NCBI RefSeq assembly: GCF_017352155.2
Contig: NZ_CP071462.1
Location: 620,001 to 684,000 of the forward strand
Reading direction: 5' to 3'
Length of the DNA: 64,000 nt
Origin: Haloterrigena alkaliphila
Lineage (GTDB): Archaea; Halobacteriota; Halobacteria; Halobacteriales; Natrialbaceae
A model generated the notes under the pieces. It was not told the DNA's origin. It was given only the letters and a program-made list of their open reading frames with translations, and did not search any database. Positions 1 to 57,965 of this stretch are shown here, piece after piece. How positions within the stretch are numbered: the first letter of the stretch is position 1; each line of letters starts with the position of its first letter. Position numbers and translations under genes: made by a program.

Positions 1-55
1 CATGCGCATTCAGGTGCCGAACGACGTCTCGATCGAGATCGTCCTCGAGGACTGA
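1..55 (+). CDS. C-terminal end of an unidentified protein (partial, cut by window edge)
   Basis: Frame 2 is open from the window edge to a TGA at 53-55 and ends in ...VPNDVSIEIVLED. An ATG lies at 2-4 but a 17-residue gene is unlikely, so this is more probably the tail of a gene that starts outside the window. The acidic, hydrophobic-alternating tail suits a haloarchaeal protein, but no family can be named. Confidence 0.45.
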   Translation, partial: MRIQVPNDVSIEIVLED

Positions 56-167
56 GGCGATCGCGGTTGCGGTGCGTTTTTCACCATTTTAGTGGCCGTG
101 CGTAGCTGTAGGACTATTCGCTAGGATGGGTGACTGAGACTGTACAACTTGGGACCCGCTCGAGAAC

Positions 168-489
168 ACCACGAAAGCCCCTTCCGCGCTCGACTCCCAG
201 GACTCGCTGCGCGCCTCGCTCCCTTCGGTCGCATCGGTGCTTACGTCGTCCGGGTTCGCCGAGCGCGGAAGCCCCTTTCATTCCCACCCACGGTGGCCCG
301 ATCGGTCAGCCGGAACGGGTGGGAATGAAAGGGGCTGCCAGTTCCGGGAAGACGGGCGACGGTGAGCCGAACGAAGGGAGGCGAACGTCGGAAAACGAGC
401 GAAGCGAGTCTTCCGGTACAAGCACCGCAGGCCGAAGGTCGAGGAGCACAGCGAGCCCCTCAACCGGAACTGGCAGGGGCTTTCGTGGT
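168..489. repeat. Four-way-junction (cruciform) element, non-coding
   Basis: Four perfect inverted repeats abut with no unpaired base between them. The outer stem is 168-181 with 476-489 (14 bp). Arm 1 is 182-192 with 260-270 (11 bp), arm 2 is 271-289 with 317-335 (19 bp, GGGTGGGAATGAAAGGGGC on its 3' side), and arm 3 is 336-347 with 464-475 (12 bp). GCCCC/GGGGC tracts at the base of the stems could re-pair with each other. ORFs crossing it on both strands are arginine/serine-rich and look spurious. The element could be a structured RNA, a MITE-like repeat or a DNA cruciform; nothing in the sequence decides between these. Confidence 0.8.
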
Positions 490-490
490 A

Positions 491-550
491 TTTGCAGTGA
501 TCACGTGGTCATCCCAGTAGTTTGTAGTGACCACGCGGATATCCCAGTAG
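491..550. repeat. Two imperfect 30-bp tandem repeats
   Basis: Units 491-520 and 521-550 are head to tail and match at about 25 of 30 positions; both end in ATCCCAGTAG and carry a GTGAYCAC-like core. They directly follow the cruciform element and precede the rhomboid gene by about 60 bases, so they could be part of the element or a regulatory site for the gene. Confidence 0.65.
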
Positions 551-611
551 CTCCCACCTAGCCATCAGTGGCGACGCGGGGACTTTTGGGGCATGCCGTC
601 TGACTACCCCC

Positions 612-1298
612 ATGGCGGATGGTTCGCGGTTACGCTCGAGCGTCGGCAGGCGGGGGACCGGGTCGGGGACCGACGACTCGAGTAGCCCCATCTTCGAACT
701 GCTGGTTCTGTTCGTCCTCGTCTTCGCAGTCCAGCAGGTCGCGGCGCTGCTCAGCATCGGGCTGATGGCCGGCCTGTTCGTGCTCGCGCCGCCGCTGACG
801 AGCAACCCGTGGACGATCGTGACGAGCGTCTACGCCCACGGCGGGGTCGGTCACCTCGTATCGAACAGCCTCGCGCTGATCGTCTTCGGCTGGCCCGTCG
901 CGCGGGCGACGACCCGACTGCGGTTTCACCTGTTCTTCCTGGTGACGGGCGCCATCGCGGGGGTGTCCCAGATCGTGCTCACCAACGCCGCCGCGTTAGT
1001 GCTCCCGGTGCCCGGGACCGGCGGCGTGCTCGGGGCCAGCGGCGCGGTCTTCGCCCTGCTTGGGTACCTGATCGCCTCGAATCGGCTGTCGGCCGGCCTG
1101 GCCTCGTTCGTCGACGTCCCCGGCTGGCTGGCGGCGCTGGTCTTCCTCGGGCTCGCGATCGCGGTCACGATGGCCACCGCCGCGCCGGGCGTCGCGCTGA
1201 TCGCGCACTTCGCCGGCTTCCTGGTCGGACTAGTGGCCGGGCGCGCTCGCGTGTTGAACGCGGGGTCGCGCTCGAGTCGGCGACGGTCGACCGTGTGA
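612..1298 (+). CDS. Rhomboid family intramembrane serine protease
   Basis: The 228-residue protein has about six membrane segments after a polar N-terminus of about 26 residues. Rhomboids cleave substrate proteins within the membrane using a Ser-His dyad. Both residues are visible: Ser143 in the GASGAVFALLGY motif and His199 in the AHFAGFLVG helix. The upstream HGGVGHLVSN segment (residues 76-85) supplies the conserved His and Asn of the oxyanion side. Length fits the compact archaeal six-helix form. It is transcribed alone, facing the ATPase gene, and is preceded by repeats rather than an operon partner. Substrate unknown. Confidence 0.9.
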   Translation: MADGSRLRSSVGRRGTGSGTDDSSSPIFELLVLFVLVFAVQQVAALLSIGLMAGLFVLAPPLTSNPWTIVTSVYAHGGVGHLVSNSLALIVFGWPVARATTRLRFHLFFLVTGAIAGVSQIVLTNAAALVLPVPGTGGVLGASGAVFALLGYLIASNRLSAGLASFVDVPGWLAALVFLGLAIAVTMATAAPGVALIAHFAGFLVGLVAGRARVLNAGSRSSRRRSTV

Positions 1299-1430
1299 AT
1301 TGGTGGGTGGCTCGAGGATCAGTTGATGAGGGGCACGGAGGTCCGTTGGTCAGTGACTCGAGGGTCAGTCGGTGGTCGCTCGAAGGAGAGTTGGTGAATC
1401 GCTCGAGAATCGAGTATCCGCCGACCGAGT

Positions 1431-2822
1431 TCACCAGCCGTCGACGATATCCGCGGGCGCGAACAGCGAGACGTCGTCCCGTTCTTCCGCGACCGCTTCC
1501 AGGCCGTCCGAGAATCCGGACCGGCAGAAACAGCAGTAGTGGTGTGTCACGTCGCCGCCGCCCGGTGGCGTCCACCGGACCTGATCGGCGCTTCGCTCGA
1601 GGTCGGCGAGGTCGGCCTCGTCCATCGCTCGGGTGGTGTACTTGCACTCCCCGGTGACGAGCGTGCCGTCGCTCGCGAGTCCCACGACGTCGAGTTCGTG
1701 ACGGTCGTGCCACCAGTAGCCGATCCCGTGGTACGTCTTGGGTACGAGCGACGGGAGCGCGTTCTGGCAAACGCGTTCGAACATCGTCCCCATGTACTCC
1801 GAAACGGTCGGTTCGACCAGCTGTTCGTAGGCGTCGTCGCCGAGCTGGGCGAGTTTTCCCTGCTGCCCGTAGACGTACTGGAACCAGAACCGGAACAGCG
1901 GCTCCGTCAGTCGGTAGCGACTCTTTCGGGTCGAGTTCGGATCGGCCGTCACCGGAATGTCCCGCTCGACCAGCCGAAGCCGGCGCAGTTTCGAGAGGTA
2001 CGAGCCGAGCGCGTTCGAGTCGACGCCGGCGAAGCCGGCGATCTCGTTGGCCTCGCGCCTCCCCATCGCGATCGCCCGGAGGATCGTGAAGTAGGTCTGG
2101 GGTTCCCGAATGCCGAACTCTGTCCGCAGCAAGAACTCGGGTTCGTTGTGGAGGACGCCGTGCTCCGAGAGGACGTGCGACTGAACGTTCTCCGCGAGCG
2201 TCGCAGCGGGGGTGAGCGCCCGGAGGTAGTACGGCGTCCCGCCGAAGACGCCCCACGTCCGGATGATGGCGTCCGGGTCGTCGGCCGGGTAGAATTGTCG
2301 GGCGTCCCCCAGTTCGAGCGGCGGGAGGTCGATCGTCCCCGTCCGCCGACCGTACAGCGGACTGCCGCCGCTGAGGACCTTCTCCTCCATGACGCTGATC
2401 GACGACCCGACGAGGACGAGCGTCGCGGCCGTCTCCTCGAGGTGCATATCCCAGACGCGCTGAAACTTCGAGGGGAGCGCGTCGTCCGATTCGACGAGGT
2501 ACGGGAACTCGTCGAGCACGACGATGGCGTCCTGCCGCCCGAGCGCCCGGAGCAGCGCCTCCCAGTCGCGCTTGATGTCCTCGAGCATCGGGAACGTCTC
2601 GCTGGCGGTTTCGACGAAGTTCTCGAGTTGGGCGGCCGGCGTTTCCTCGGTGGCCTGCCAGTAGACGGCGTCCTCGCGGTCCCGGATCGCCTCGCGGACG
2701 AGGGCGCTCTTGCCGAGTCGCCGCCGCCCGTAGACGACCAGCAGTTCGGCCGCGTCGCGCTCGAACCGCGATCGCAGGAGCTCGAGTTCGTCCTCGCGGT
2801 CGATGAACCGTGGGTGAGCCAT
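1431..2822 (-). CDS. Archaeal ATPase with DUF234-type C-terminal domain
   Basis: The 463-residue protein has a P-loop at residues 32-39 (GRRRLGKS), a Walker B at 100-105 (IVVLDE), a winged-helix region around 255-295 and a C-terminal restriction-nuclease-like patch: Asp378, then Glu392-x-Lys394 in GTLVTGECKY. This is the architecture of the archaeal ATPase/DUF234 family, STAND-like ATPases that are abundant and lineage-expanded in archaea and whose role is poorly known. It is monocistronic. The AT-rich segment 2850-2900 upstream probably carries its promoter and contains a repeated GATTTTACTA (2873-2882 and 2888-2897). A DNA-linked or defence role is only inference. Confidence 0.85.
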   Translation of the reverse strand: MAHPRFIDREDELELLRSRFERDAAELLVVYGRRRLGKSALVREAIRDREDAVYWQATEETPAAQLENFVETASETFPMLEDIKRDWEALLRALGRQDAIVVLDEFPYLVESDDALPSKFQRVWDMHLEETAATLVLVGSSISVMEEKVLSGGSPLYGRRTGTIDLPPLELGDARQFYPADDPDAIIRTWGVFGGTPYYLRALTPAATLAENVQSHVLSEHGVLHNEPEFLLRTEFGIREPQTYFTILRAIAMGRREANEIAGFAGVDSNALGSYLSKLRRLRLVERDIPVTADPNSTRKSRYRLTEPLFRFWFQYVYGQQGKLAQLGDDAYEQLVEPTVSEYMGTMFERVCQNALPSLVPKTYHGIGYWWHDRHELDVVGLASDGTLVTGECKYTTRAMDEADLADLERSADQVRWTPPGGGDVTHHYCCFCRSGFSDGLEAVAEERDDVSLFAPADIVDGW

Positions 2823-2986
2823 ACCTGCGTCTCGAGGCGCGCCAGGATAATAGTGACGATTATCTAAATCGAGATTTTACTAATTACGATTTTACTACTG
2901 GCAGGCTCGAGTGCCGCGTGGTGGTCACTGCCGCGCTGTCCCCGAAACACAAGCTACAAATAGAAACCACGGTTAGGAACGTGCGA

Positions 2987-3058
2987 GGGCTCGTAGATCA
3001 GTGGTAGATCGCTTCCTTCGCAAGGAAGAGGCCTCGGGTTCAAATCCCGACGAGTCCA
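2987..3058 (+). tRNA. tRNA-Ala (anticodon CGC)
   Basis: The cloverleaf is complete: acceptor GGGCTCG (2987-2993) pairs with CGAGTCC (3051-3057, one G-U), the D-arm GATCAGTGGTAGATC follows, the anticodon stem CTTCC/GGAAG encloses loop TTCGCAA with anticodon CGC, and the T-arm is TCGGG-TTCAAAT-CCCGA, with discriminator A3058. No intron and no encoded CCA are seen. The promoter should lie in 2940-2985, where an AAATAGAAA stretch occurs. The 3' end is duplicated downstream. Confidence 0.95.
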
Positions 3059-3198
3059 TAATTCTGCGCCGCGAGCAAATTCGCGAGCGGCGCAAATTAT
3101 CGCCGAGGAGGGATTTGAAGCCCTGTGAGTCGCAGCCCGCGAGTGAGCGGCGCGAACGAGCAGGACCGTCTCACAATGGGTTCAAATCCCAACGAGTC
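3036..3198. repeat. Duplicated tRNA-Ala 3' end (att-like scar)
   Basis: Positions 3036-3056, inside the T-arm and acceptor of tRNA-Ala, recur at 3178-3198 with one mismatch (G to A, at 3049/3191). Such a duplicated tRNA 3' end is the usual footprint of integration by a tyrosine recombinase. A further T-loop-like remnant (GGATTTGAAGCCC) lies on the opposite strand near 3111-3123. No integrase gene is present, so this is a remnant or one end of a larger, decayed element. Confidence 0.75.
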
Positions 3199-3479
3199 AA
3201 TTAGAATTTTGTAACGTTCCAATTATCCCGATAGTCGCTGGCTTAGCGACTAACTCCAGATTATGCAGTAGCAATTCGTGAGTAGAAACCACCCCAGAAT
3301 AGACTGGAATGTTTTCCTTTCATATCCACAAGACAATTTAGACAATCGCGAACACATCGGTGATTGGACTTCGGTACCTGATTTCCGTGGAGAATATGGG
3401 AAATGACTGAGAAAAATACATCAGTTTCTATTGTGTACTGAAAAGGGTTTAATTAGAATGCACACTTTAGTTACCGACA
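3199..3479. other. AT-rich intergenic segment with hairpin and promoter
   Basis: No gene is visible here. It is much AT-richer than the surrounding genome. A perfect 8-bp hairpin, TAGTCGCT/AGCGACTA with loop GGCTT, lies at 3232-3252. A TATA-like GTTTAATTAG at 3447-3456 is about 28 bases before the start codon at 3480, matching a leaderless haloarchaeal promoter. Confidence 0.6.
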
Positions 3480-4877
3480 ATGCCCGACTACAATCCATTC
3501 GGAAAACCACTTTCAGAAGTGGGTCCAGAAGATCTCTATTCTATGAAAATACCCGAGGGTTATTACTTTGAATATAAGCGTGATTTTATAGATCAAAAGG
3601 CAGTAGCAAAAGCAATATCCTCATTTGCTAACACATATGGCGGGTTATTTTTCATCGGTATTGAGGAAAATGAGGAAACTAATAAACCAGGTGATTGGTT
3701 TACACTCACAAGCGGGGATCCTCAAAGTTACAATGAGAAAATCCGGAGCTCTGTGAAAGAGAATATAAGCCCGTCCCCTATGTATGAGACACATTCATTC
3801 AAAGGAACGAACAGTAGTGGAGATGAAGGGTACGTGATATTGGTAGATGTGCCTGAAAGCACACAAACACCCCACATAAACAATGATGGCCGTGTCTATC
3901 GGAGAACTGGTGAGGGTAGTGACCCCTATAAGGTTACTTCTAGTCCAGAAGTTCTAGACGATCTTTACAGACGAAGAGATGAATGGCAAACTCGAATTGA
4001 TGATTTCTGTAATTTAGATGTGGGTCTAACTGTGGGGCAATCGGGTGAAGGCCAAAATCAAGGATGGCCGTTTTTAGAACTTTATGCTATTCCGTCAACT
4101 CTAGATGATCCAGTATGTGCTAATGTAATAAGTGAATTAGACCGTTTCCAAGAAATATTCGAATCATCAGAAATACATCTCTTACCGGATGATTCTGAGA
4201 TAGTTCAGGAAGGAGGGAGGGTCAGATTTGGTTTCACAGCCGATTCTTACCGTGCTACCAGCGAAGGTGTTGTTGCTCAACTATGGACGGCAGAGGATCA
4301 TCAGGGCAATATTGACACCGCTCACACACCGCTGACATTTACTTTCCTTGTAGATGGAGGTTTGAAGATTTTCCTTCCAATTCCCACACTATCCCCTCCA
4401 GAGAATCCGACCCTTGTATGGAGGAGTATAGATCAAGCAATTCACTCTCAGTTTGATCACATTGAGTTTTTAGATGGGTTACGCCTATTGGGATACATAC
4501 ATACTTTGTTAAATTCTTACTTGAATCTTCTCTCTGAGTACGAGTGGCCGACCGAATCCGGCACGATCAACTTAAGAGCTAGATTCAGGAACACATATCG
4601 GACATTATTAGTATTTGAAACAGATTGGTATATTGATTTGATAGAAAGATATGGTGCACCGGTTTGTTATGATGAGATTTTAGATCTCCCCCGCTTAGAA
4701 TCGATGAACTATGAGCTAGATATTGATGAGTCGAATAAATTCGGAAGCATAACAGTCGGTACAATGAATCTCTTCCAAGCGTTTGGGCTTCCAATAGATC
4801 AATCTAATAATGTTTTCGGCGAGTTCTCTAGTTACGTTATTGATCAAATGTTTCAAGAGACCGAGTTTGAGGATTGA
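3480..4877 (+). CDS. AlbA_2 (Schlafen-like) putative DNA/NTP-binding domain protein, probably acquired
   Basis: The protein has 465 residues. The N-terminal domain (about 25-155) shows the AlbA_2 hallmark: a Glu/Lys motif (FEYKRDF, 30-36) followed by AISSFANTYGGLFFIGIEEN (45-64) and an HINNDGRVYRRTGEGS strand. This fold is shared with Schlafen proteins and occurs in many archaeal regulators and defence genes. The C-terminal 300 residues match nothing I recognise. The gene is strikingly AT-rich with codons such as AAT, ATA and AGA, unlike every neighbour, and sits just beyond the duplicated tRNA end, which together argue for recent horizontal transfer. It is a single gene with its own TATA box at 3447-3456. 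Confidence 0.8.
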   Translation: MPDYNPFGKPLSEVGPEDLYSMKIPEGYYFEYKRDFIDQKAVAKAISSFANTYGGLFFIGIEENEETNKPGDWFTLTSGDPQSYNEKIRSSVKENISPSPMYETHSFKGTNSSGDEGYVILVDVPESTQTPHINNDGRVYRRTGEGSDPYKVTSSPEVLDDLYRRRDEWQTRIDDFCNLDVGLTVGQSGEGQNQGWPFLELYAIPSTLDDPVCANVISELDRFQEIFESSEIHLLPDDSEIVQEGGRVRFGFTADSYRATSEGVVAQLWTAEDHQGNIDTAHTPLTFTFLVDGGLKIFLPIPTLSPPENPTLVWRSIDQAIHSQFDHIEFLDGLRLLGYIHTLLNSYLNLLSEYEWPTESGTINLRARFRNTYRTLLVFETDWYIDLIERYGAPVCYDEILDLPRLESMNYELDIDESNKFGSITVGTMNLFQAFGLPIDQSNNVFGEFSSYVIDQMFQETEFED

Positions 4878-5028
4878 CTATAGTGGATTAGACATTTCCG
4901 CTGATCTCGAAATCTGGTGCATTGTCCCCTCTTTAAGATATGGACGGTCTTTATATTCGGAACCTCTGCTACGGATATAACCACCGAATACGAGAAGTCA
5001 GTAAACAGGACGAATTATGACTGATCAG

Positions 5029-5346
5029 TTACTCGCCAGCCCGAGCCTCGAGCCAGTTATCAATCTTACACATCACAGCCGCGGCCACGGCGTCGGCGAT
5101 CCGATCGGGCGAGTCGGTCAGGTCCCAGACGTACTCGCCGTCGCGGGTGACGGTCACCCACTCGACGTAGTCGCCGCGGTCCAATTCGAGCAGGAGCGAC
5201 TCGAGGGCATCCGCGTTCAGTTCGAGGCCGAGCGAGTCCTCGACCTGTGCGGAGAGTTGGGTTGTCGTCGCGACGACGCGGTCGTCGCCGGCGGTCGCCG
5301 GGCCGCCGGTCGCGGGGGTCGGGGGGGATGGGGGGTGGTTAGACAT
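5029..5346 (-). CDS. Small conserved haloarchaeal protein, function unknown
   Basis: The 105-residue product has a Pro/Ala/Gly-rich N-terminal tail of about 25 residues, then an acidic helix-rich body with ...LNADALESLLLELDRGDYVEWVTVTRDGEYVWDLTDSPDRIADAV. I chose the start at 5346, not an earlier in-frame one at 5538, because an AT-rich box on the minus strand (5372-5384) lies about 30 bases upstream, as expected for a leaderless gene. GC content is normal, so it lies outside the AT-rich island. No family recognised. Confidence 0.6.
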   Translation of the reverse strand: MSNHPPSPPTPATGGPATAGDDRVVATTTQLSAQVEDSLGLELNADALESLLLELDRGDYVEWVTVTRDGEYVWDLTDSPDRIADAVAAAVMCKIDNWLEARAGE

Positions 5347-5649
5347 CGTCGGCCGATCGGTTGGGACTCGAGTATTATTAATTGCAGTGGTGGTCACGGT
5401 GTCGTGACTATCGGGGAGCTGACGACTCTCGTGACGGCCGATCGGACACGCGTGAGCGAGGCAGTCTGCCAGGACCTGGAGTACACTTACACCCTCGCCG
5501 TGACCGAAAAATCGCCCGGCGTGCGCAGGTGCTTCCACTACTAATAGCTGTTCCTTCCGAACCGATTCACCATAGTTTTATGTTAGATACTTTATTCACT
5601 TACTGAATAACCATAATTATTATTTATCGGAACGATGTATGTGAGTTGC
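5347..5649. promoter_or_regulatory. Divergent intergenic region with palindrome and two TATA-like boxes
   Basis: The region separates the small minus-strand gene from the HTH_10 gene. It holds a minus-strand TATA-like box at 5372-5384, a perfect inverted repeat GTCACG-GTGT-CGTGAC at 5393-5408 that could be an operator, and a plus-strand AT-rich box at 5613-5626. The stretch 5410-5600 shows no convincing coding signal. Confidence 0.5.
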
Positions 5650-6378
5650 ATGCGGTATGTGACATATACTATCACGCCACAGCAGGGGAACTTCGATCCG
5701 GCGGAGGAGCTGTTGCGTGAGCACGGGGTGGCGTTGCAAACGATTCAGGCGATCGACTACCTCGCCGACGAGACGATCGTCACTCGTCGCGAGATTCAGG
5801 GGGACCGCGAGGACATCGTCGGTGCGCTCGAGGATCCCGCCGCGAACATCCTCGAGTACTCGCTGTTCGACGTCGAGGGGAGTACGGTCCTGCAGATGCA
5901 GTACGAACCCGGCGAGTTGACCCGGCGGATCCTCGAGATCCACCAGCGGCACGCGGTGTTGCCGGACTACCCGATGGAGTACACCGGGGCGAAGAACAGC
6001 ACGCTTCGCATCTCCCAGATCGGAAGCGAGGCGGAGCTCCAGTCGCTGATCGCCGAGACGCGGGCGATCGTCGACGTCGAAATCGAACGCCTCGGGACCT
6101 ACGATCCCTCGGACGGCGAGCACCTCATCGAACTGACCGACCGCCAGCGGGAGGTCCTGTCCGTCGCGATCGAGGAGGGCTACTACCAGGAGCCCCGGGC
6201 GGTGACCTATCAGGACATCGCGGATCGCCTCGACTGTTCGGCGGGGACCGTCGGCCAGCATCTCCGCCGCATCGAATCGCGGCTCATGTCGACGGTTATC
6301 ACCGGGGGCTCGAGGGCCAACCGAGCGTCGGGACCGAGCGACGATACCGACGCGGAGACGACACCGCCCTCGAGGTAG
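5650..6378 (+). CDS. HTH_10 (bacterio-opsin activator type) transcription regulator
   Basis: The 242-residue protein has an N-terminal alpha/beta sensor-like region and a C-terminal helix-turn-helix: LTDRQREVLSVAIEEGYYQEPR...TYQDIADRLDCSAGTVGQHLRRIES. That is the HTH_10 signature of the Bat family of haloarchaeal regulators. An in-frame ATG at 5635 would add MYVSC, but the AT-rich box at 5613-5626 fits a leaderless start at 5650. The C-terminal tail of about 25 residues is disordered. It stands next to a convergent histidine kinase gene; no direct link is shown. Target unknown. Confidence 0.85.
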   Translation: MRYVTYTITPQQGNFDPAEELLREHGVALQTIQAIDYLADETIVTRREIQGDREDIVGALEDPAANILEYSLFDVEGSTVLQMQYEPGELTRRILEIHQRHAVLPDYPMEYTGAKNSTLRISQIGSEAELQSLIAETRAIVDVEIERLGTYDPSDGEHLIELTDRQREVLSVAIEEGYYQEPRAVTYQDIADRLDCSAGTVGQHLRRIESRLMSTVITGGSRANRASGPSDDTDAETTPPSR

Positions 6379-6393
6379 GCCGCGACGAGCGCG

Positions 6394-7872
6394 TCACAGC
6401 GACGGGGAGAGTGGGGGCTCTACCTCGACGGCGCGCTCGGCGGGAAACGAGAGCGTCACGACCGTTCCACCGCCCGAGCGGTCCGCGAAGCGCAGATCGC
6501 CGCCGGCGTTCTGGACGATCCAGTTGACCAGCCACAGCCCCAGTCCGGAGCCGTGATCGAGCTGGGTCTCTTGACCGTCGAGCACCGCCCGTCGCTCGGT
6601 TTCGGGAATCCCCTCGCCGTCGTCGGCGACCGTGAACTCGAGGCGGGGATCGGCGTCGTAGTCGACGGTCTGGACGACGATTTCGACGGACGGCACGTCC
6701 GGGGCGTCGTCCCCGCTCGCCGGGTTGTGCCTGACCGCGTTATCGACGAGTTCGTTGAGCGCGTCGACGACGCTGGCGTCGATCATCGGTGGGTTCGTGC
6801 CCGCTCCCGGCGCTTCGGTCTGGGTGACGATCCGGGCGTCGGGATAGGCCGCTCGCGCGCGGTCGGCGACCGACCGGATCGCCTCCGTGGCCTCGATGCG
6901 GTCGGTGGTGCCGTTCCGTTCGAGGGTCCGTTCGACGCCGCGGGCCTTGTCGGCCGTCGCGATCAGGTCGTCGATCTCCGCGAGGATCGGTCGCACGTGG
7001 CGCCGCTCGAGGCGCTCGTTTCGATCGGCGATGAGGTTGGCGTGGCCCTGGATGACGGTCACGGCGTTTCGGAGGTTGTGCCGGAGGACGCGGTTGAGCA
7101 CCTGAATGCGTTGCTCCCGGTCGCGCTGGTCCGTGACGTCGCGGGCGATGACGACGGAGCCGTGCTGGAGCGCGCTGACGGTCACGTCCAGGGGAAACGT
7201 CGTGCCGTCGGTTCGCTCGCCGGTCAGCGTCCCCCGCCAGTAGTTGCGCTCGGCGACCGCCGACTCGACCTCGCCCTCGATCGAGGCCTGTGCGGCGTTC
7301 GTAAAGAGCGTCGTCCAACGCGTCCCCTCGAGGGTGTCGGCGTTTCTGACCCCGTAGAGCGAGGCGTAGGCGTCGTTGACGTAGACGTGCCGATCGTCCA
7401 CGACGACGGCGATCCCGTCCATCGAGGCCTCGACGGCGTGGGAGAGGCGCTCGTTCTCGCGGTAGTGGTAAGAGAATTCGATGTAAACGTGTCCGAGCAG
7501 CGCCCCGAGGGCGATACCGGCGCTCAGCGCGCTGAGTACCGGCTGTGAGAGCCCGCCGGTGAACCCGATCCGGACCGAGAGGAGGTAGATGCTCCAGGCG
7601 CAAAACAGCGCCATCATCGCACCGGCGGCGAGCGAACACGCGGTGACGATATCGGCTCGAGTCGGCTCCGACTCGTCGGCGTGCGTTCGAACGCCGTACC
7701 AGACCAGTGCGACCCCGATGAGCGTCGGAACGCCCATCTCGAGGACCAGCAACGTCGGGGCGCCGCCGAACGTCAGCACGTACGCACCGACGACGGCGAG
7801 CAATCCGAGGCCGACGATCGAAACCGAGTACTCCCGAACGTACGTCGACGCGCGGCGAGCACTGGAGACCAT
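6394..7872 (-). CDS. Membrane-anchored PAS sensor histidine kinase
   Basis: The protein has 492 residues. Four membrane helices occupy about 15-35, 39-59, 78-98 and 111-131, followed by a PAS domain (about 143-250), an H-box with His265 in LNRVLRHNLRNAV, and a HATPase domain with N-box NELVDNAVRH, G1 box DDGEGIPE and G2 box GSGLGLWLV. The HNLRN type H-box is typical of haloarchaeal kinases. No receiver protein is encoded beside it, so the partner is elsewhere. It is convergent with the HTH_10 gene, with only 15 bases between their stop codons. Confidence 0.9.
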   Translation of the reverse strand: MVSSARRASTYVREYSVSIVGLGLLAVVGAYVLTFGGAPTLLVLEMGVPTLIGVALVWYGVRTHADESEPTRADIVTACSLAAGAMMALFCAWSIYLLSVRIGFTGGLSQPVLSALSAGIALGALLGHVYIEFSYHYRENERLSHAVEASMDGIAVVVDDRHVYVNDAYASLYGVRNADTLEGTRWTTLFTNAAQASIEGEVESAVAERNYWRGTLTGERTDGTTFPLDVTVSALQHGSVVIARDVTDQRDREQRIQVLNRVLRHNLRNAVTVIQGHANLIADRNERLERRHVRPILAEIDDLIATADKARGVERTLERNGTTDRIEATEAIRSVADRARAAYPDARIVTQTEAPGAGTNPPMIDASVVDALNELVDNAVRHNPASGDDAPDVPSVEIVVQTVDYDADPRLEFTVADDGEGIPETERRAVLDGQETQLDHGSGLGLWLVNWIVQNAGGDLRFADRSGGGTVVTLSFPAERAVEVEPPLSPSL

Positions 7873-8017
7873 CGGCGGAACAGTACGTGATGGGAAGACG
7901 ACGATTATAAATCAATTGGCAATTTTCTCGACACCTCGTCAGACGTTCGCAAACCCGTCGACAACGGCGCCGGTGCCGACCCCGAACCGTTTGGTACTGG
8001 GCGCCGTCGATACTGAC

Positions 8018-50688: not shown

Positions 50689-53004
50689 ATGGCGTCCCCG
50701 TCGTCGACCCTCGAAGGTACCTGCAAACTGCGCGCCGAACCCGCGCCCAGCGACGCGCTCTTCGCGTGGGTCGCCGCGGAGTACGCCGCCCTCGCCGACG
50801 AGTACGGACCGCGGAACGTGCTGGTCCTGAAACGCCACCCCGCCGGCCTCGAGCGACTCGTCGAGACGTGTTCCGGCGTCGACGCCGCGGCAGGGCCGCG
50901 TTCACCCCGCGTCGAGTCCCTGCCCGAACACGCCTCGAAGGCCCTCGAGGAGTACGACCCGACGCTCGACCGCCTCGAGTACGAGGAGCGTATCGAACTC
51001 GTCTCGCTGGTGATCGACGGCGCCAGCCGCTCGGTACCGGCGTATCTGGAACGCGCCGCCGAGCACGAGAGTTTCGCCCGCGACGTCGGGCAACTGCTGC
51101 TCGAGGCGACGCGCCAGCGGTTGCGACTCGCCGACGTCGAGGCCGACGATCCCCACGAGTGTCTGGCCTTCCTGTACGCGATGAACGACCGCTTCCACGC
51201 GGAACTCGAGGACCGGGGCTACGTCGAACGGGCCGACGTCGTCCCGCGGACCGTCGACCTCCTCGAGTCGAACGCGGACGGCCTCCGGGACCGCGTGACG
51301 GAGTCGATCGACGCCGTCCTCGCCGTCGAGTTCGAGGAGTACCGACGCCTCGACCGGCGCTACCTCGCGGCGCTGACCCGGGACGCCGACCTCGTCTGCC
51401 TGGGCGAACGTCACGCCAGCGTCGAGCGTACCCGTGTCGAACCCGGTCGGATCGAGGATCTCGTCGGTGACGACCTCGCGGTCGAGGTGCTCGAGGACCC
51501 GCTCGGCGAAGACGAGAGCGACGACCGCGGTATCGGACGCCGGAAGCCGTCACATCGGGCGATTACCCGGTTTCTGGCGACCGGCAAGGGACCACAAGAA
51601 CAGCGACACGGCGGCGAGGGCGACAACGAAAACGAGGGGCCTGACAGAGAAAACGGAGACGGCGGAGACGAACCGAACATCACGGGGCGAGCGCGACGCA
51701 TCCGGACCCGGACCGCTCGCGAACAGGTCCGGACGGTCGCCACCGAGATTCAGGCGCTACGCGACCGGCACGGCTGGAGTTTCGACGAGTTCGCCGTTGC
51801 GGTGCCGCGAATCGAGCGCGTCCCCGAGACGCGAACGCGGCTCCGCGAGGCCGGGGTTCCGACGGCGACGATCGGGACCCCCGCGCTCGCGGAAGACCCG
51901 GCGGTCAACGAACTCTACGCGTTCGTCACGCTCCAGTGCGAGCGCGAGCGCGACGGAGACGGAATAGGGGCCGCGACCGGAGACCTCCACGCCGACCGCG
52001 GCCGCGACGCGGGCGACCCGCGCGAGGTCTCGCTCGAGCGCCTGCGCGCTCGCGTCGACGACTTCTCGCCGAACCTGCTCGAGGAAACCGCCGGATCGAG
52101 CGTCTCCCGGTCGCTCGAGCGGTGGATCCGCCGAACGGATCTGAAGGGGCGAATCGCCCGCGAGGAGGAGTGGATCGACGCCCGCGAGGCGTTCGCCGGA
52201 GTCAGCCGGGTGCTCGAGATCGCCCGCTTCGTCGAGGAGACGGACCTCGTCGGGCCGGACTGGCAGGGGTTACGCCGGATGCTCCGGCGGACGATCCAGT
52301 ACGACGCGCCCTACGTCCACGCCGTCGAGACGCAGCCGCCGACCGGCGGCGTCACGGTCTGTGCCGCCGCCGACCTGAAGTACGACTCGCGGGAGGCCGT
52401 CTTCCTGCTGGACCTGACCGACGACACCTACCCCGGCGAGCAGTTCCTGACGCAACTGTTCCCGACGGCGTGGCTGCGCGAGATGGAAACCTATCCGGCG
52501 GTCACTGATCCCGACCCCAGCGACATCGCGGAGACGTTCGCGACCGTCGACAGGGAGGCCGTCGGCGATCCCTTCGAGACCTACCACGCACAGCGCGCAC
52601 GCCGGCGCCTCGCGCTCGGCGCCCGCGCCGCGCGCAGTCACCTGTACTGCTGTTCCTACGAGCGCGGCGCCGGCGGCCTGCGCCGGACGTTCGACGAGTC
52701 GCGCTACCTGCAACTGATCGACGCGGCGCCGGGCCTCGACCTCGAGGACGTCTCGACCGAGACGGGGGCGGCGATCCACGGCGAGCGGAACGCTCTCGAG
52801 GCGCTGCTCGACCAGCCCCGCGGCGAACTCGAGCGGATCCTGCGGGAGGCGAGCACCGGCGGCGAGGCCGATCTGGGCGCGACCGAGGAACTGTTCGAGG
52901 AGATCGCGGTCGTGCTCGAGGAGGGCGACGTGGACCCCGAACTCGCGGAAGCGGTGCGCTCGCAGTTCGAGTTCGCCGCGGGAGAGGTGATCCGCGATGA
53001 CTGA
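50689..53004 (+). CDS. AddB/RecC-like pseudo-helicase subunit of a DNA-end-processing operon
   Basis: The 771-residue protein resembles the inactive helicase half of AddB. Its C-terminal half has a UvrD-fold motif set: TVCAAADLKYDSREAVFLLDLTDDTYPGEQFL (motif V like, VFLLxLxDxxYP) and RARRRLALGARAARSHLYCC (motif VI like). The N-terminal region has no Walker A P-loop, so ATPase activity is unlikely. A disordered Gly/Glu/Asp-rich insert occupies about 290-340. The 3' end overlaps the next gene by 8 bases. With the next two genes it forms a tight operon; the pair with a UvrD/nuclease gene is what suggests AddB-like function. Not a standard AddB: the nuclease part is a separate gene. Confidence 0.75.
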   Translation: MASPSSTLEGTCKLRAEPAPSDALFAWVAAEYAALADEYGPRNVLVLKRHPAGLERLVETCSGVDAAAGPRSPRVESLPEHASKALEEYDPTLDRLEYEERIELVSLVIDGASRSVPAYLERAAEHESFARDVGQLLLEATRQRLRLADVEADDPHECLAFLYAMNDRFHAELEDRGYVERADVVPRTVDLLESNADGLRDRVTESIDAVLAVEFEEYRRLDRRYLAALTRDADLVCLGERHASVERTRVEPGRIEDLVGDDLAVEVLEDPLGEDESDDRGIGRRKPSHRAITRFLATGKGPQEQRHGGEGDNENEGPDRENGDGGDEPNITGRARRIRTRTAREQVRTVATEIQALRDRHGWSFDEFAVAVPRIERVPETRTRLREAGVPTATIGTPALAEDPAVNELYAFVTLQCERERDGDGIGAATGDLHADRGRDAGDPREVSLERLRARVDDFSPNLLEETAGSSVSRSLERWIRRTDLKGRIAREEEWIDAREAFAGVSRVLEIARFVEETDLVGPDWQGLRRMLRRTIQYDAPYVHAVETQPPTGGVTVCAAADLKYDSREAVFLLDLTDDTYPGEQFLTQLFPTAWLREMETYPAVTDPDPSDIAETFATVDREAVGDPFETYHAQRARRRLALGARAARSHLYCCSYERGAGGLRRTFDESRYLQLIDAAPGLDLEDVSTETGAAIHGERNALEALLDQPRGELERILREASTGGEADLGATEELFEEIAVVLEEGDVDPELAEAVRSQFEFAAGEVIRDD

Positions 53005-54046
53005 CGGGAGCGTCGAGGGCGGACAGGAGCGGTCACGAATCGACGCCCTCTCGGTAGACGGCCTCGCGACCGCGCTCCACTGCCCCCGCCGGTTCGAGTT
53101 CGCCCACGTCGACGGCCTCGAGGGCGACGGTGACGACGGGCCGACCGCGGATCGCGTCGCGCTCCTGCGAACGGCCATCTGCGACGCGCTCCGGCGGGGC
53201 GAGACCGACCGCGAGGCGCTCGTCGAGGCCGCTCGAGGCCGACTCGAGGCGCTCTGGGCCGACCACGACGAGCGGTTCCACTCGCGGACCCAGCGACGCC
53301 ACGAACTGCGCGTGCTCGAGGCGACGCTCGAGGCCTACGTCGACCGGGTCGGCGTCGAACACGCCGCCGGGATCGAACGGCTGGCGGACGACGCCGCCGG
53401 CGGGGAACTGATCGGGCCGGAGTTACCGGTCTCGAGTACGGTCTCGCTCCCCGACCGGGACGAGACTGTCGAAATCGACGCCGCCGTCGACTACGTCTAC
53501 GCGGACGGTCAGTCGGTCGTCGGCGTTCGGTTCGTTCCCACGCTCGCGCCGCTGGGGCTGCTTCGCTACCGCTCCGACTGGGAGGGGGCCGTCGCCGAGG
53601 CCTTCACGGATCATTTCGATACAGCAACGGACGGCTTCGATCCGACGCTCGTCGGCGCGCTCTTCGAGACGGCCGTCGTGATCGACGGCCTCCGCGCGCG
53701 CTGTGAGCGACTGGGACTCGAGGACCGGACCTGTCGGTACGTGCAAATCCCGCTGGCCGACCGCTCGAGCACCGCGGTCAACTGGGTCCGGGAGACGGTC
53801 GAGGCGAGCCTCGAGACGGTCGATCTGACCGAGACCTACATCGACCACCACACCTACGGCATGACCCACGAACACCGGAACCGGACCGTCGACGACCGAC
53901 TCGCGGCCGTCGTCGGCGACCTCCTCGCGGCCGAGTACGATCCGACCAATCGGTGGACGCAGATCTCGAGCGAGGTCTGTCCCGACTGCGAGTACGCGGT
54001 GTGCTGTCAGGACTACATCGCCGCGGAGGTGCGCTTCGATGGCTGA
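52997..54046 (+). CDS. Separate Cys-rich (Fe-S type) PD-(D/E)XK-like subunit of the operon
   Basis: The 349-residue protein has an early Cys29 in ALHCPRRFEF and a C-terminal cluster Cys328-x2-Cys331-x4-Cys336-Cys337 (CPDCEYAVCC), matching the 4-Cys Fe-S arrangement of AddB and Cas4-type nucleases. A nuclease-like strand pair occurs at ETVEIDAAVDYVYADGQSVV, but the expected DxK is GVRFV, so the catalytic Lys is missing and it may be inactive. It overlaps both neighbours by 8 bases. It is best read as the split C-terminal domain of an AddB-like protein. Confidence 0.72.
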   Translation: MTDGSVEGGQERSRIDALSVDGLATALHCPRRFEFAHVDGLEGDGDDGPTADRVALLRTAICDALRRGETDREALVEAARGRLEALWADHDERFHSRTQRRHELRVLEATLEAYVDRVGVEHAAGIERLADDAAGGELIGPELPVSSTVSLPDRDETVEIDAAVDYVYADGQSVVGVRFVPTLAPLGLLRYRSDWEGAVAEAFTDHFDTATDGFDPTLVGALFETAVVIDGLRARCERLGLEDRTCRYVQIPLADRSSTAVNWVRETVEASLETVDLTETYIDHHTYGMTHEHRNRTVDDRLAAVVGDLLAAEYDPTNRWTQISSEVCPDCEYAVCCQDYIAAEVRFDG

Positions 54047-57000
54047 AGAGCGGCGGGAGCGGCGACCGGACCACGGCGGCTCACGAGTGGGCGACGAGGG
54101 CAGCGATGGCGACCTCGAGCCGAAGGGCAACCAGCGGGCCGTCATCGAGAGCCGCGCGGCCTGCACCTCCGTCGACGCCGGCGCGGGGACGGGGAAGACG
54201 ACGACGATGCTCATGCGGATCGAACGCGCGATCGAGCGCGGCGACGTCGACCCGGAGGACGTGCTGGTGTTGACCTTCGCCAACGAGGCCGCCGGGAGCA
54301 TCCGCGAGGCCGTCGCCGAGCGCCTCGATCCCGCGGCCGCCGCGGCGATCGACGTCTACACCTACCACTCCTTCTGTTACCGGCTGGTCCGGGAGTACGC
54401 CTACTACCTGGGCTACTCGCCGGAGTTCGACGTCGTCACCGAGCGCACGCGCCGACGGATGGTCGGCCGACTGCTCGCCGAGAACGACTACGGCTTCGCG
54501 ACCGCGGCCGGGCGAAGCGACGGCTCGCCCGAGGACCTCACCGCCGCCGTCGACGGCTTCATCCGGGCGATGAGTCAGGAGGACGTCACGCCCGACGAGT
54601 TACAGGAGCGATTGCCCGCGGTGCGCACCCTCGAACTCTGCAACGAGTTCGTCCTCTGGCTGGAGCGCACGGCGAGCGAGGAGCTTTCCTTCGACAACGC
54701 GGCACTGCGCTACTTCAACGCCGACGACCACCTCGAGGCCGGCCGGGAGTCGCTGGTCGACTACGGCAAACTCCTCGAGTACTGCCGCGAGAAGATCGCG
54801 GAGGCCCCCGCCGAGTTCCGCGAGGACGACGTGGTCCGCGACGTCGACCGCTACCTCCGGGTGCTCCAGGAGTGCGTGACGAACGCGATCGACGTCCTGT
54901 CGCTCGAGGATCCCACGACGAAACAGCTTCCGCGCGCCCTGTTCGGCAACGAGATCTGGCGGGAGGCCACGAACCGGATCGAGCAGAGCCCGTTCGGCCG
55001 CCTGAAACACTACGTCGAGTTCATGCGCCTCGCGCGCCACTACGCCGACGTCTACGCCGATTACCACGACGCCCTCGAGGCCGAGCGCGCGCTGGACTTC
55101 GACGAACTGGTGCGGACGGCGACGGGGCTGTTGGACGATCCGGCGATCGCCGGCGAGATCACGGGCCAGTGGGAGCAGGTCTACTGCGACGAGTTCCAGG
55201 ACACCGACGAGACGCAGTTCGCGCTGATCACCGAACTCACGGACGGCCCCGATCGGCCCGACCTGCTCGCCATCGGCGACAAGGATCAGGCCATCTACGG
55301 CTGGCGGGGCACCGACCGCGAAGGGCTGGATCGACTCGCGGACGCCTACGACGACCACGAGGCGATCGAACTCGAACTCAACTTCCGCTCGCGCCAGGAG
55401 ATCCTCGACCTCACGAACCACTGCGATTACGGCCCGCAGTCCTCGAAGACGCTCCGCGAGGTCGGCCGGACGCCCGGTGAGTACCGGGCCGACGGGAATT
55501 CGGCGGGAGAATCGGAGGACGCCGCGCTCGAGGGAAGTGCTGACGACGAGGCGGCGACCGACGACGCCGACAGAGCGGTGACGAACGGCGATCCCGCCAA
55601 TCCACCGGATCGCGTCGTCAAGATCGAGAGCGCCCGCGTGGGCCCGTCGACGGCCGAACAGGTCGCGACCACCGTCTCGCGGCTACTGAACGGCGAGGCC
55701 GAGAACGTCCCCCAGCGCTCGCTCGAGGACATCGCGGTCATCGTTCGGACCAACCGCCACGCGCAGTCGGTCGCCGAGGAACTGCGGGACCTCCAGATCC
55801 CCTACGAGATTTCGGGCTCCCCCCGCGGCGAGATTTCGCCCGGCGTCCGGACGCTGCTCTCGTACTTCCGCGTGCTCGTCGATCCGACCGCGGATGCCCA
55901 CCTCCGGCGCGTGTTGCTCTACCGGTATCGGCTCCCGGAGAGCGACCTCGCGACGCTCCAGCGACGGGACGGATCGCTGTACGACGCGGTGATAGACGAC
56001 GGGTCGGAGGGCGAATCCGACGCGAGCCTCGAGCACCCCGAGCGCGTCGAACGGGCCCGGGGCCACCTCGCGGCGCTCGAGCACCTGCGAGACGTCTACC
56101 CGCTGTCGGGGTTCGTCCGTCGGTTCCGCGAGGTGACCCGCCTCGAGTGGTTCCTGACGAGCGAGGAGCGCGAGGAACTCGAGCGGATCGAGCGGTTCGT
56201 CGAGGCCTACACCGGTGACTCGGTGATACAGACGCTGACGCCGTCGTTCGTCGACGCGCTCGAGCGGACGCTGCGGGGCGGCGAGAGCGAACGCACCCGC
56301 GGCACCCAGTCGACGGACTCGATCGACGTCATGACGGTCCACCAGGCCAAGGGGCTGGAGTTCGACACGGTGCTCGTCCCCTACCTCTCCGACGAGGAGT
56401 GGTGCGTCGAGCGCGATTACGCCCGGCGGGCCAGGTACAGACTGCTCGCGGCGATGCTGGACGACGACGTCGACTCGCCGCTGCTGGCGGATCTGGCGGC
56501 CGAGACCGTCGGCGAGGAGTGGCGGGTGCTTCACGTCGCGCTCACCCGCGCCGAGAACCACCTGTTCGTCTTCGGCTCCGAGTACGACTACGACGGCGAG
56601 GAGGGCGATCTGGCGGCCTCGACCGCCGACGCCTGCCTCGCCGACGAGATCGAGTGGTCGGTCGCCGGCCGGCGAATGAACCTCTGGTCGTCGCTCCGGG
56701 AGAGTTTCGAGCGGGTGCGCGAGACCTACCCCGGGACCGTCGCCGACCGGACCGAGGAGATCGAGCTCTCGGCCGGCGTCAGCCCGGGGACGATCACCTA
56801 CTACGCCGACTACGGCGACCGACCGGTCGAACCCCTCGAGACGCGGGAGGCCATCGAGACGGTCCACCGACTCGGGCGGCTGCTGCGCGACGGGACGCTG
56901 CTCCCCGCGGCCGACGCGGCGAGTCACGGCGGCAACGAAGCCGGGGACAGAGGCGAAAGCGGGCGCGGAGGCAGGGACGGGAGCAGGGACGAGGGCGGGG

Positions 57001-57965
57001 GCAGGAACGGGGGCGGGGGCGGGACCGCGGCCAGTCGCTCGAGGCGTCGGGTACCGACCGGTCGCCAGCTCTCGGCGCTGACGCCCGACACCGTCCGGTT
57101 CCCCGTCGAGACGCTCGCGAACGCCGCCGAGTTGCCGGCCGCGTTGCGCCACAGCTACTCGGCGATGGAGACCCACGACACGTGCCCGCGAAAACACTAC
57201 CTCGATCACGTCGTGCGGGCGTTCGACGACCCCGCGGCGGGAACGGGAGCGGGAATGGGCACGGGAGTCGGTTCGCAGGGAACTCGAGCGGAGACACCGT
57301 CCGAACCCGGCTCGCGGCTCGTCGGTACCGTCTTCCACGACGTCGCCGAGGAGGCCTTCTACCGCGAGTACCGGACCCGGGAGGCGTGGCGCGAGGCCGC
57401 CGTCCGACAGCTCACCGCGCGGGATCTGCTCGAGCACCGCGAGGCCGTCCTCGCCTGTATCGATCGCTTCTTCGAGGCCGACGCGCCGGCGTTCGACGCG
57501 CCGGTCGCCGACTGGGAGCCGCTGGCCGCGGAACTCCCCTTCGCGCTCGCGGACGTCGCCGACGTGCGCGGCGACGTCGTGGGCTACGTGGACTCGATCC
57601 GGCGGACCCCCGACGGCGGCCTCGCGGTGCTCGACTACAAGGCGACGGCCGAGCGGATCGCCCCCGCCGACGCGACGCAACTCGCGCTGTACGCCCGGGC
57701 CTGCCAGCGGCGGTTCGACGACCCCATCGCGGCGGTCGGCTACGTCTACGTCGGCGACGTCGAGGGGCCGCGCGTCGACCTCATCGATCCCGACGACCTG
57801 CCGCCGTGGTCGGCGGTTCGGGAGACGCTCGAGGCGGTCGACGCGCCGTCGTTCGGCGAGACGACGCCGGGCGACCACTGTCGGTACTGCCCGCACCGGT
57901 CGCTGGGGTGTGGGCCCGACGGGGTCGTCGAGGCGGCCGATATCGAGGTTTCAAGCGATGACTGA
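54039..57965 (+). CDS. AddA/RecB-like UvrD helicase fused to Cys-rich PD-(D/E)XK nuclease
   Basis: The 1308-residue protein has a Q-motif (NQRAVIES), Walker A GAGTGKT (48-54), DEFQDTD motif II, IGDKDQAIYGWRG motif III, NFRSRQEI motif IV, TVHQAKGLEFDTV motif V and VALTRAENHLF motif VI, so it is a superfamily 1A helicase. The C-terminal nuclease has Asp1185, Asp1199-Tyr-Lys1201 and QLALYARA, and four Cys (1049, 1281, 1284, 1291: CPRKHYL and CRYCPHRSLGC) for an Fe-S cluster. It would unwind and degrade DNA ends. A low-complexity Gly/Arg/Glu stretch occurs at about 965-1000. Final gene of the operon. Length and layout match AddA/RecB, but the Fe-S cluster is AddB-like. Confidence 0.88.
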   Translation: MAEERRERRPDHGGSRVGDEGSDGDLEPKGNQRAVIESRAACTSVDAGAGTGKTTTMLMRIERAIERGDVDPEDVLVLTFANEAAGSIREAVAERLDPAAAAAIDVYTYHSFCYRLVREYAYYLGYSPEFDVVTERTRRRMVGRLLAENDYGFATAAGRSDGSPEDLTAAVDGFIRAMSQEDVTPDELQERLPAVRTLELCNEFVLWLERTASEELSFDNAALRYFNADDHLEAGRESLVDYGKLLEYCREKIAEAPAEFREDDVVRDVDRYLRVLQECVTNAIDVLSLEDPTTKQLPRALFGNEIWREATNRIEQSPFGRLKHYVEFMRLARHYADVYADYHDALEAERALDFDELVRTATGLLDDPAIAGEITGQWEQVYCDEFQDTDETQFALITELTDGPDRPDLLAIGDKDQAIYGWRGTDREGLDRLADAYDDHEAIELELNFRSRQEILDLTNHCDYGPQSSKTLREVGRTPGEYRADGNSAGESEDAALEGSADDEAATDDADRAVTNGDPANPPDRVVKIESARVGPSTAEQVATTVSRLLNGEAENVPQRSLEDIAVIVRTNRHAQSVAEELRDLQIPYEISGSPRGEISPGVRTLLSYFRVLVDPTADAHLRRVLLYRYRLPESDLATLQRRDGSLYDAVIDDGSEGESDASLEHPERVERARGHLAALEHLRDVYPLSGFVRRFREVTRLEWFLTSEEREELERIERFVEAYTGDSVIQTLTPSFVDALERTLRGGESERTRGTQSTDSIDVMTVHQAKGLEFDTVLVPYLSDEEWCVERDYARRARYRLLAAMLDDDVDSPLLADLAAETVGEEWRVLHVALTRAENHLFVFGSEYDYDGEEGDLAASTADACLADEIEWSVAGRRMNLWSSLRESFERVRETYPGTVADRTEEIELSAGVSPGTITYYADYGDRPVEPLETREAIETVHRLGRLLRDGTLLPAADAASHGGNEAGDRGESGRGGRDGSRDEGGGRNGGGGGTAASRSRRRVPTGRQLSALTPDTVRFPVETLANAAELPAALRHSYSAMETHDTCPRKHYLDHVVRAFDDPAAGTGAGMGTGVGSQGTRAETPSEPGSRLVGTVFHDVAEEAFYREYRTREAWREAAVRQLTARDLLEHREAVLACIDRFFEADAPAFDAPVADWEPLAAELPFALADVADVRGDVVGYVDSIRRTPDGGLAVLDYKATAERIAPADATQLALYARACQRRFDDPIAAVGYVYVGDVEGPRVDLIDPDDLPPWSAVRETLEAVDAPSFGETTPGDHCRYCPHRSLGCGPDGVVEAADIEVSSDD

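Follow-up and report, generated by a model that had tools for sequence, protein, structure and literature searches.

A three-gene AddAB-like helicase-nuclease operon with a split-off, catalytically degenerate AddB-type nuclease chain on a haloarchaeal chromosome

The window, by which the whole analysed stretch of 64,000 nucleotides is meant, corresponds to C1:620001-684000 of a haloarchaeal genome of 4.27 Mb and carries three overlapping genes (the trio) placed head to tail on the + strand at 50689-57965, with an 8-base overlap at each of the two gene junctions. Three overlapping genes had been described here in an earlier note made from the sequence letters, and this is borne out by the open reading frames and by the recurrent gene order in relatives. 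The genes encode an AddB-like chain (protein 1), a separate nuclease-like chain (protein 2) and a UvrD-type helicase with a C-terminal nuclease (protein 3), and the nearest named relatives of the operon occur in Haloterrigena, Natronorubrum and Natrinema (Natrialbaceae). The trio is likely to form one AddAB-like helicase-nuclease complex which, in the lineage of the window, has one motor, one nuclease and a pseudonuclease that keeps a predicted iron-sulfur (Fe-S) staple. The coordinates of the genes and their motifs are shown in Table 1.

Table 1 Genes and predicted functional sites of the trio, in window positions (aa, amino acids; Cys, cysteine)
Feature	Position	Strand	Remarks
Protein 1, AddB-like subunit	50689..53004	+	Helicase-fold chain without P-loop; 771 aa from ATG
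Protein 1, alternative GTG start	50686		772 aa
Protein 2, split AddB-type iron-staple nuclease-like subunit	52997..54046	+	Catalytically degenerate; 349 aa
Cys29 codon of protein 2	53081..53083	+	First of four predicted Fe-S ligands; invariant in 116 loci
Degenerate nuclease motif of protein 2	53489..53536	+	D165 retained; R178 and V180 at the DxK positions
Cys328, Cys331 and Cys337 of protein 2 (CPDCEYAVCC)	53978..54007	+	Other three predicted Fe-S ligands; invariant in 116 loci
Protein 3, AddA-like UvrD helicase with C-terminal four-Cys PD-(D/E)XK nuclease	54039..57965	+	1308 aa
Walker A lysine K53 of protein 3	54195..54197	+	Conserved in 111/111 members
Nuclease domain of protein 3 (H1100, D1185, D1199, K1201)	57153..57902	+	PDDEXK_1 match
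Fe-S ligand candidates of protein 3			C1049, C1281, C1284, C1291
C1291 codon of protein 3	57909-57911	+	Just outside the PDDEXK_1 profile match

Gene order was identical in 41/41 loci drawn from Halobacteriales and in 77/77 named loci with a long enough contig, and most of the relatives' loci have junction overlaps of 4 or 8 bases; the helicase gene is truncated in one locus, L091. The AddB nuclease part is a separate gene in every readable locus, and a misassembly or a frameshifted AddB was rejected because the split is kept in all of these loci and the starts overlap. Protein 1 is present in 42 of 147 genomes of Halobacteriales, and protein 3 matches scoring 129 bits or more are confined to 41 of these 42, the next match (90 bits) being a nuclease remnant. 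Because homologues recur in the same order across loci, the linkage is far above chance. The pairwise identities of the three proteins correlate (r 0.97-0.99), which is consistent with inheritance of the trio as a unit. A protein 3 homologue reduced to the C-terminal nuclease, without helicase or partners, was seen at L226 6054-6968.

Searches of Pfam and NCBIfam with the protein 1 sequence alone gave no useful match, and a family profile was needed. The best PDB match of a 33-member profile was Bacillus subtilis AddB (expectation value (E) 3e-8), followed by UvrD1 and AdnA; ADDB_N was found in 8/33 members and addB_Gpos in 14/33, with weak scores below the curated cut-off of NCBI. The AlphaFold2 model of protein 1 (predicted local distance difference test (pLDDT) 81) resembles the structures of UvrD, AddB and AdnB, with E values of about 1e-20, and hhalign comparisons ranked methanogen AddB first (E 1.4e-14), with UvrD/Fe-S chains, protein 3 and haloarchaeal AddB behind it. 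The N-terminal helicase position holds no P-loop in any of 118 family members, and the three stray pattern matches in the family all fall within variable regions. The proposal of an AddB-like first subunit is thus supported by profile, fold and hhalign matches, and that of a missing P-loop by the 118 members examined. No relatives of protein 1 were found in the viral contigs searched.

Protein 2 has a weak PDDEXK_1 match (E 2.6e-6). Its sequence profiles found no relative in the PDB, and the kinship with AddB emerged from the fold: the AlphaFold2 model (pLDDT 89) has AddB (3u4q_B) as its sole PDB match at E<=0.001. This match, and the matching C-terminal four-Cys nuclease carried by the single-chain AddB of relatives (methanogens and another haloarchaeal operon), uphold the earlier suggestion that the nuclease half of AddB was split off. 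C29, C328, C331 and C337 are invariant in all 116 loci, and the four Cys are found in 107/107 distinct sequences. Of the 116 loci, 44 retain the catalytic His, second Asp and Lys (40 distinct sequences; the intact or sister lineage), and 72, including the window, have lost them (67 distinct sequences; the dead lineage). The window protein has R, R and V at the catalytic His, Asp and Lys positions, and its degenerate motif can be aligned without gaps to GKADNV...VDYKR, the intact form in the sister lineage. The chain had been described as a separate, Cys-rich, nuclease-like subunit; the PDDEXK_1 match and the invariant Cys agree with this, but with the catalytic residues lost it is only nuclease-like, and on these residues it is probably a pseudonuclease and not a working nuclease.

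Catalytic loss is the likely direction of the change because the AddB nucleases of relatives keep the motif, and a single switch between the intact and lost states suffices on the tree calculated from proteins 1 and 3, which was built by a fast method and has long branches. The ratio of nonsynonymous to synonymous substitution rates (dN/dS) in the dead lineage is 0.22-0.48 for protein 2, slightly above the 0.19-0.33 of its partners, and indicates that the gene is kept by selection. Pseudogene decay was rejected, since dN/dS is well below 1 and the four Cys are invariant. The structural integrity of the AddAB nuclease domain hinges on its Fe-S cluster (PMC7430649), which makes the loss of catalysis with retention of a cluster plausible.

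Protein 3 matches UvrD-helicase (E 6.3e-52), UvrD_C (6e-27) and PDDEXK_1 (5.9e-20). The motif II Asp is conserved in 111/111 members, and all four Cys together with the H/D/D/K residues are intact in the 110/110 members that have the region. The UvrD helicase with a C-terminal PD-(D/E)XK nuclease and four Cys read from the letters is confirmed by these domain matches and intact motifs. It aligns over its full length with methanogen AddA by hhalign (E 1.7e-73). The AddA-like chain had also been called Cys-rich, and its four Cys are indeed present, unlike in archaeal AddA, where none of 13 chains checked (methanogens and haloarchaea) has the terminal Cys cluster. Trees recovered protein 3 as its own strongly supported clade, and at a support of 84/85 they leave both AddA and UvrD as candidates for its closer relative. 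The term AddA-like holds for the layout, an SF1 motor plus a RecB-type nuclease, but the trees neither put protein 3 inside AddA nor exclude that the two are sisters. Proteins 1 and 3 both match AdnA/AdnB.

Single-chain AddB beside AddA is found in methanogens of the phylum and, in a different operon, in other haloarchaea, and the split is therefore a derived feature of the trio. The methanogen-type operons (L213-L219) encode AddB of 1026-1049 aa and AddA of 1076-1170 aa, and the haloarchaeal operon (L222-L225, L227), which is widespread in the order, encodes a single-chain AddB of 1062-1071 aa with four Cys and an AddA of 1211-1247 aa. Against the protein 3 profile, UvrD/Fe-S nuclease chains of the phylum that stand alone (L220, L221) reach 340 bits, a higher score than that of AddA. 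Two other candidates were rejected as parts of this system. The pair at C2:186.9-192.1 kilobases (kb) (L006 6887-12063), on a smaller replicon (plasmid), is a different helicase-nuclease pair without close kinship to the trio, in which a UvrD-type chain of 959 aa accompanies a PDDEXK_1 chain of 766 aa. The PDDEXK_1 match found in the same genome at C1:251.3-254.1 kb (L007 6258-9122) belongs to a Dna2/Bad-like chain, with an N-terminal four-Cys nuclease and a C-terminal AAA-type SF1 helicase. A 2009 survey by Cromie in J Bacteriol reportedly covered archaeal addAB genes and subsets of AddB that vary in their Walker A motif and Fe-S Cys; no description of the split-AddB pseudonuclease variant was found.

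The intact lineage has a patchy distribution and is often plasmid-borne, and protein 1 has matches in 16 plasmid records. The dead lineage occupies a stable chromosomal site in Natrialbaceae and is under purifying selection; a homologue is present in 17/20 genomes of the family, and both lineages occur together in some genomes. Conserved neighbours of the dead lineage are CBS, NUDIX and quinone oxidoreductase genes, with a CBS-domain gene upstream in 39/45 named loci and a NUDIX gene downstream in 23/45, and the operon contains no third motor gene. Some intact-lineage loci adjoin BREX-5 pglZ, type III restriction-modification, SIR2 and Mre11/Rad50-like genes, and the neighbours include a PLD-domain gene in 14/44 loci and a DUF4143 ATPase in 13/44, the loci being partly shared between the two samplings used for the neighbourhood counts. 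Apart from one Cdc6 match, the 71 dead-lineage loci examined have none of those marker genes as neighbours. No PADLOC-DB 2.0 model matched proteins 1 and 2, and protein 3 matched only generic UvrD models (GajB, DRT helicase). The link to virus defence raised in the earlier note fits the sister lineage, through its BREX and restriction-modification neighbours, but not the chromosomal copy in the window. The intact operons of L235, L236 and similar plasmid loci often have, as flanking genes, a divergent DUF4143 AAA ATPase and a 'tyrosyl-DNA phosphodiesterase' with a PLD domain, and perhaps belong with these genes to a larger defence module.

If the trio is one AddAB-like complex, protein 3 would be its only motor, loading on a DNA end, moving 3'-5' on one strand and cutting with its own Fe-S-stapled nuclease. 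Protein 1 would be a dead AddB/RecC-like helicase scaffold holding the other strand, and protein 2 the former C-terminal AddB nuclease domain turned into a separate chain, which in the window lineage would not cut, would keep its Fe-S staple and would probably help to bind or channel the DNA end. Such a one-motor, one-nuclease enzyme would have been reached independently of RecBCD. The Natrialbaceae form would most likely serve the processing of chromosomal breaks, and the sister lineage with two live nucleases would more likely degrade foreign linear DNA. Several points weigh against this account: the grouping of protein 3 with AddA is not firm (support 84/85), the catalytic loss in protein 2 is read from an alignment in which D165 is still invariant, correlated distances are expected from co-linear inheritance alone, and the repair role is drawn solely from the stable chromosomal site and purifying selection.

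The trio resembles AddAB in having an AddB-like chain first and an AddA-like chain last in one operon, a single UvrD-type motor and an AddB-type four-Cys nuclease fold; on this anatomy it would work as AddAB does, with the strands passed to nuclease domains. It differs from AddAB in that the AddB nuclease is a separate protein, catalytically dead in the window lineage, and in that the nuclease of the motor chain has the four Cys missing from all 13 archaeal AddA chains. Two active nuclease domains, a feature of AddAB, are present by motif in the sister lineage (40 sequences) and not in the window lineage (67), and the trio was not filed as AddAB proper because it has neither the fused AddB nuclease nor, in the window lineage, two live nucleases. 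RecC retains a dead nuclease-like fold as a structural part of RecBCD, and the trio is similar to RecBCD in this, in having one live nuclease on the motor chain and in having a helicase-fold subunit without a P-loop; however, its operon has no RecD-like second motor, the part that resembles a nuclease is a chain of its own with the four Cys retained, and the profile match is to AddB. The mycobacterial AdnAB likewise has two UvrD-related chains and RecB-type nucleases, but its nucleases are not split off, whereas the trio has three chains and protein 1 has neither a P-loop nor a fused nuclease. HerA-NurA and Mre11-Rad50 share with the trio a presumed role in DNA-end processing, but their motor and nuclease are unrelated to those of the trio. 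In haloarchaea, Mre11-Rad50 is the machinery to which end resection is generally attributed (PMC7776575). The genome that carries the trio also encodes a NurA homologue, so of the earlier suggestion of a system parallel to Mre11-Rad50-HerA-NurA it can be said at most that the trio is parallel to the usual archaeal system. A search for the Rad50 zinc hook says nothing either way, since H. volcanii was missed too.

Protein 3 could also be read as a UvrD-Cas4-type defence fusion, with the AddB-like and pseudonuclease chains accessory or vestigial. A family of UvrD-PF12705 fusions, found in bacteria and mesophilic archaea and linked to restriction-modification, has been described (PMC5704561). Protein 3 is likewise a UvrD joined to a Cas4/PDDEXK_1 (pfam12705) nuclease with four Cys, which is typical of this family and not of archaeal AddA; the score of L220 and L221 above AddA and the defence genes near the intact sister lineage point the same way. 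The described fusions, however, stand alone or with restriction-modification genes, whereas the trio always combines protein 3 with the AddB-like chain and the split nuclease; protein 3 is tied to the AddB-like gene in all sufficient loci, with no strong match without it. Purifying selection acts on proteins 1 and 2, the window copy lies outside a defence neighbourhood, and the trees do not join protein 3 exclusively with L220 and L221, the only two presumed members of the fusion family available. The fusion explanation is considered unlikely.

RecBCD and AddAB destroy phage DNA, and together with the BREX-5 pglZ, type III restriction-modification, SIR2, Mre11/Rad50-like and PLD-type genes beside sister-lineage operons this favours the idea that the copy in the window works against viruses or plasmids by destroying incoming linear DNA. 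That idea is nevertheless quite improbable for a lineage whose 71 loci lack the marker genes save for the Cdc6 match, whose site is stable (CBS 39/45 upstream, NUDIX 23/45 downstream), of which 17/20 genomes of the family carry a homologue and which coexists with the other form in some genomes. It is very improbable that protein 2 still cuts by way of residues that the alignment does not recognise, as the invariant D165 and the intermediate members (Halorussus type) that keep the D-x-K Asp with K changed to R might suggest, since most of the dead lineage is without the His, second Asp and Lys in a gap-free stretch.

An AddAB-like complex with a pseudonuclease remains the preferred reading, and it may be extended tentatively. 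The trio may first have been a mobile, defence-associated, two-nuclease system that was then domesticated on the Natrialbaceae chromosome, where its split AddB nuclease would have turned into a dedicated Fe-S pseudonuclease for sensing DNA ends or a Chi-like signal; this possible but doubtful history would be a second, archaeal route to the one-nuclease architecture of RecBCD. The contrast between the lineages amounts to a natural experiment: one has two live nucleases and is often plasmid-borne, the other has one live nuclease and a conserved iron-staple pseudonuclease on the chromosome. Comparing them makes it testable which function an Fe-S staple has besides catalysis, and by what path an AddAB-like enzyme with two nucleases turns into a RecBCD-like enzyme with one. 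The trio is also a further candidate machine for DNA-end processing in haloarchaea, and it occurs in genetically tractable relatives. Elsewhere in the window, G+C falls to 0.59-0.60 at positions 1-8000, compared with about 0.69 over the rest, which suggests recent acquisition of that part.

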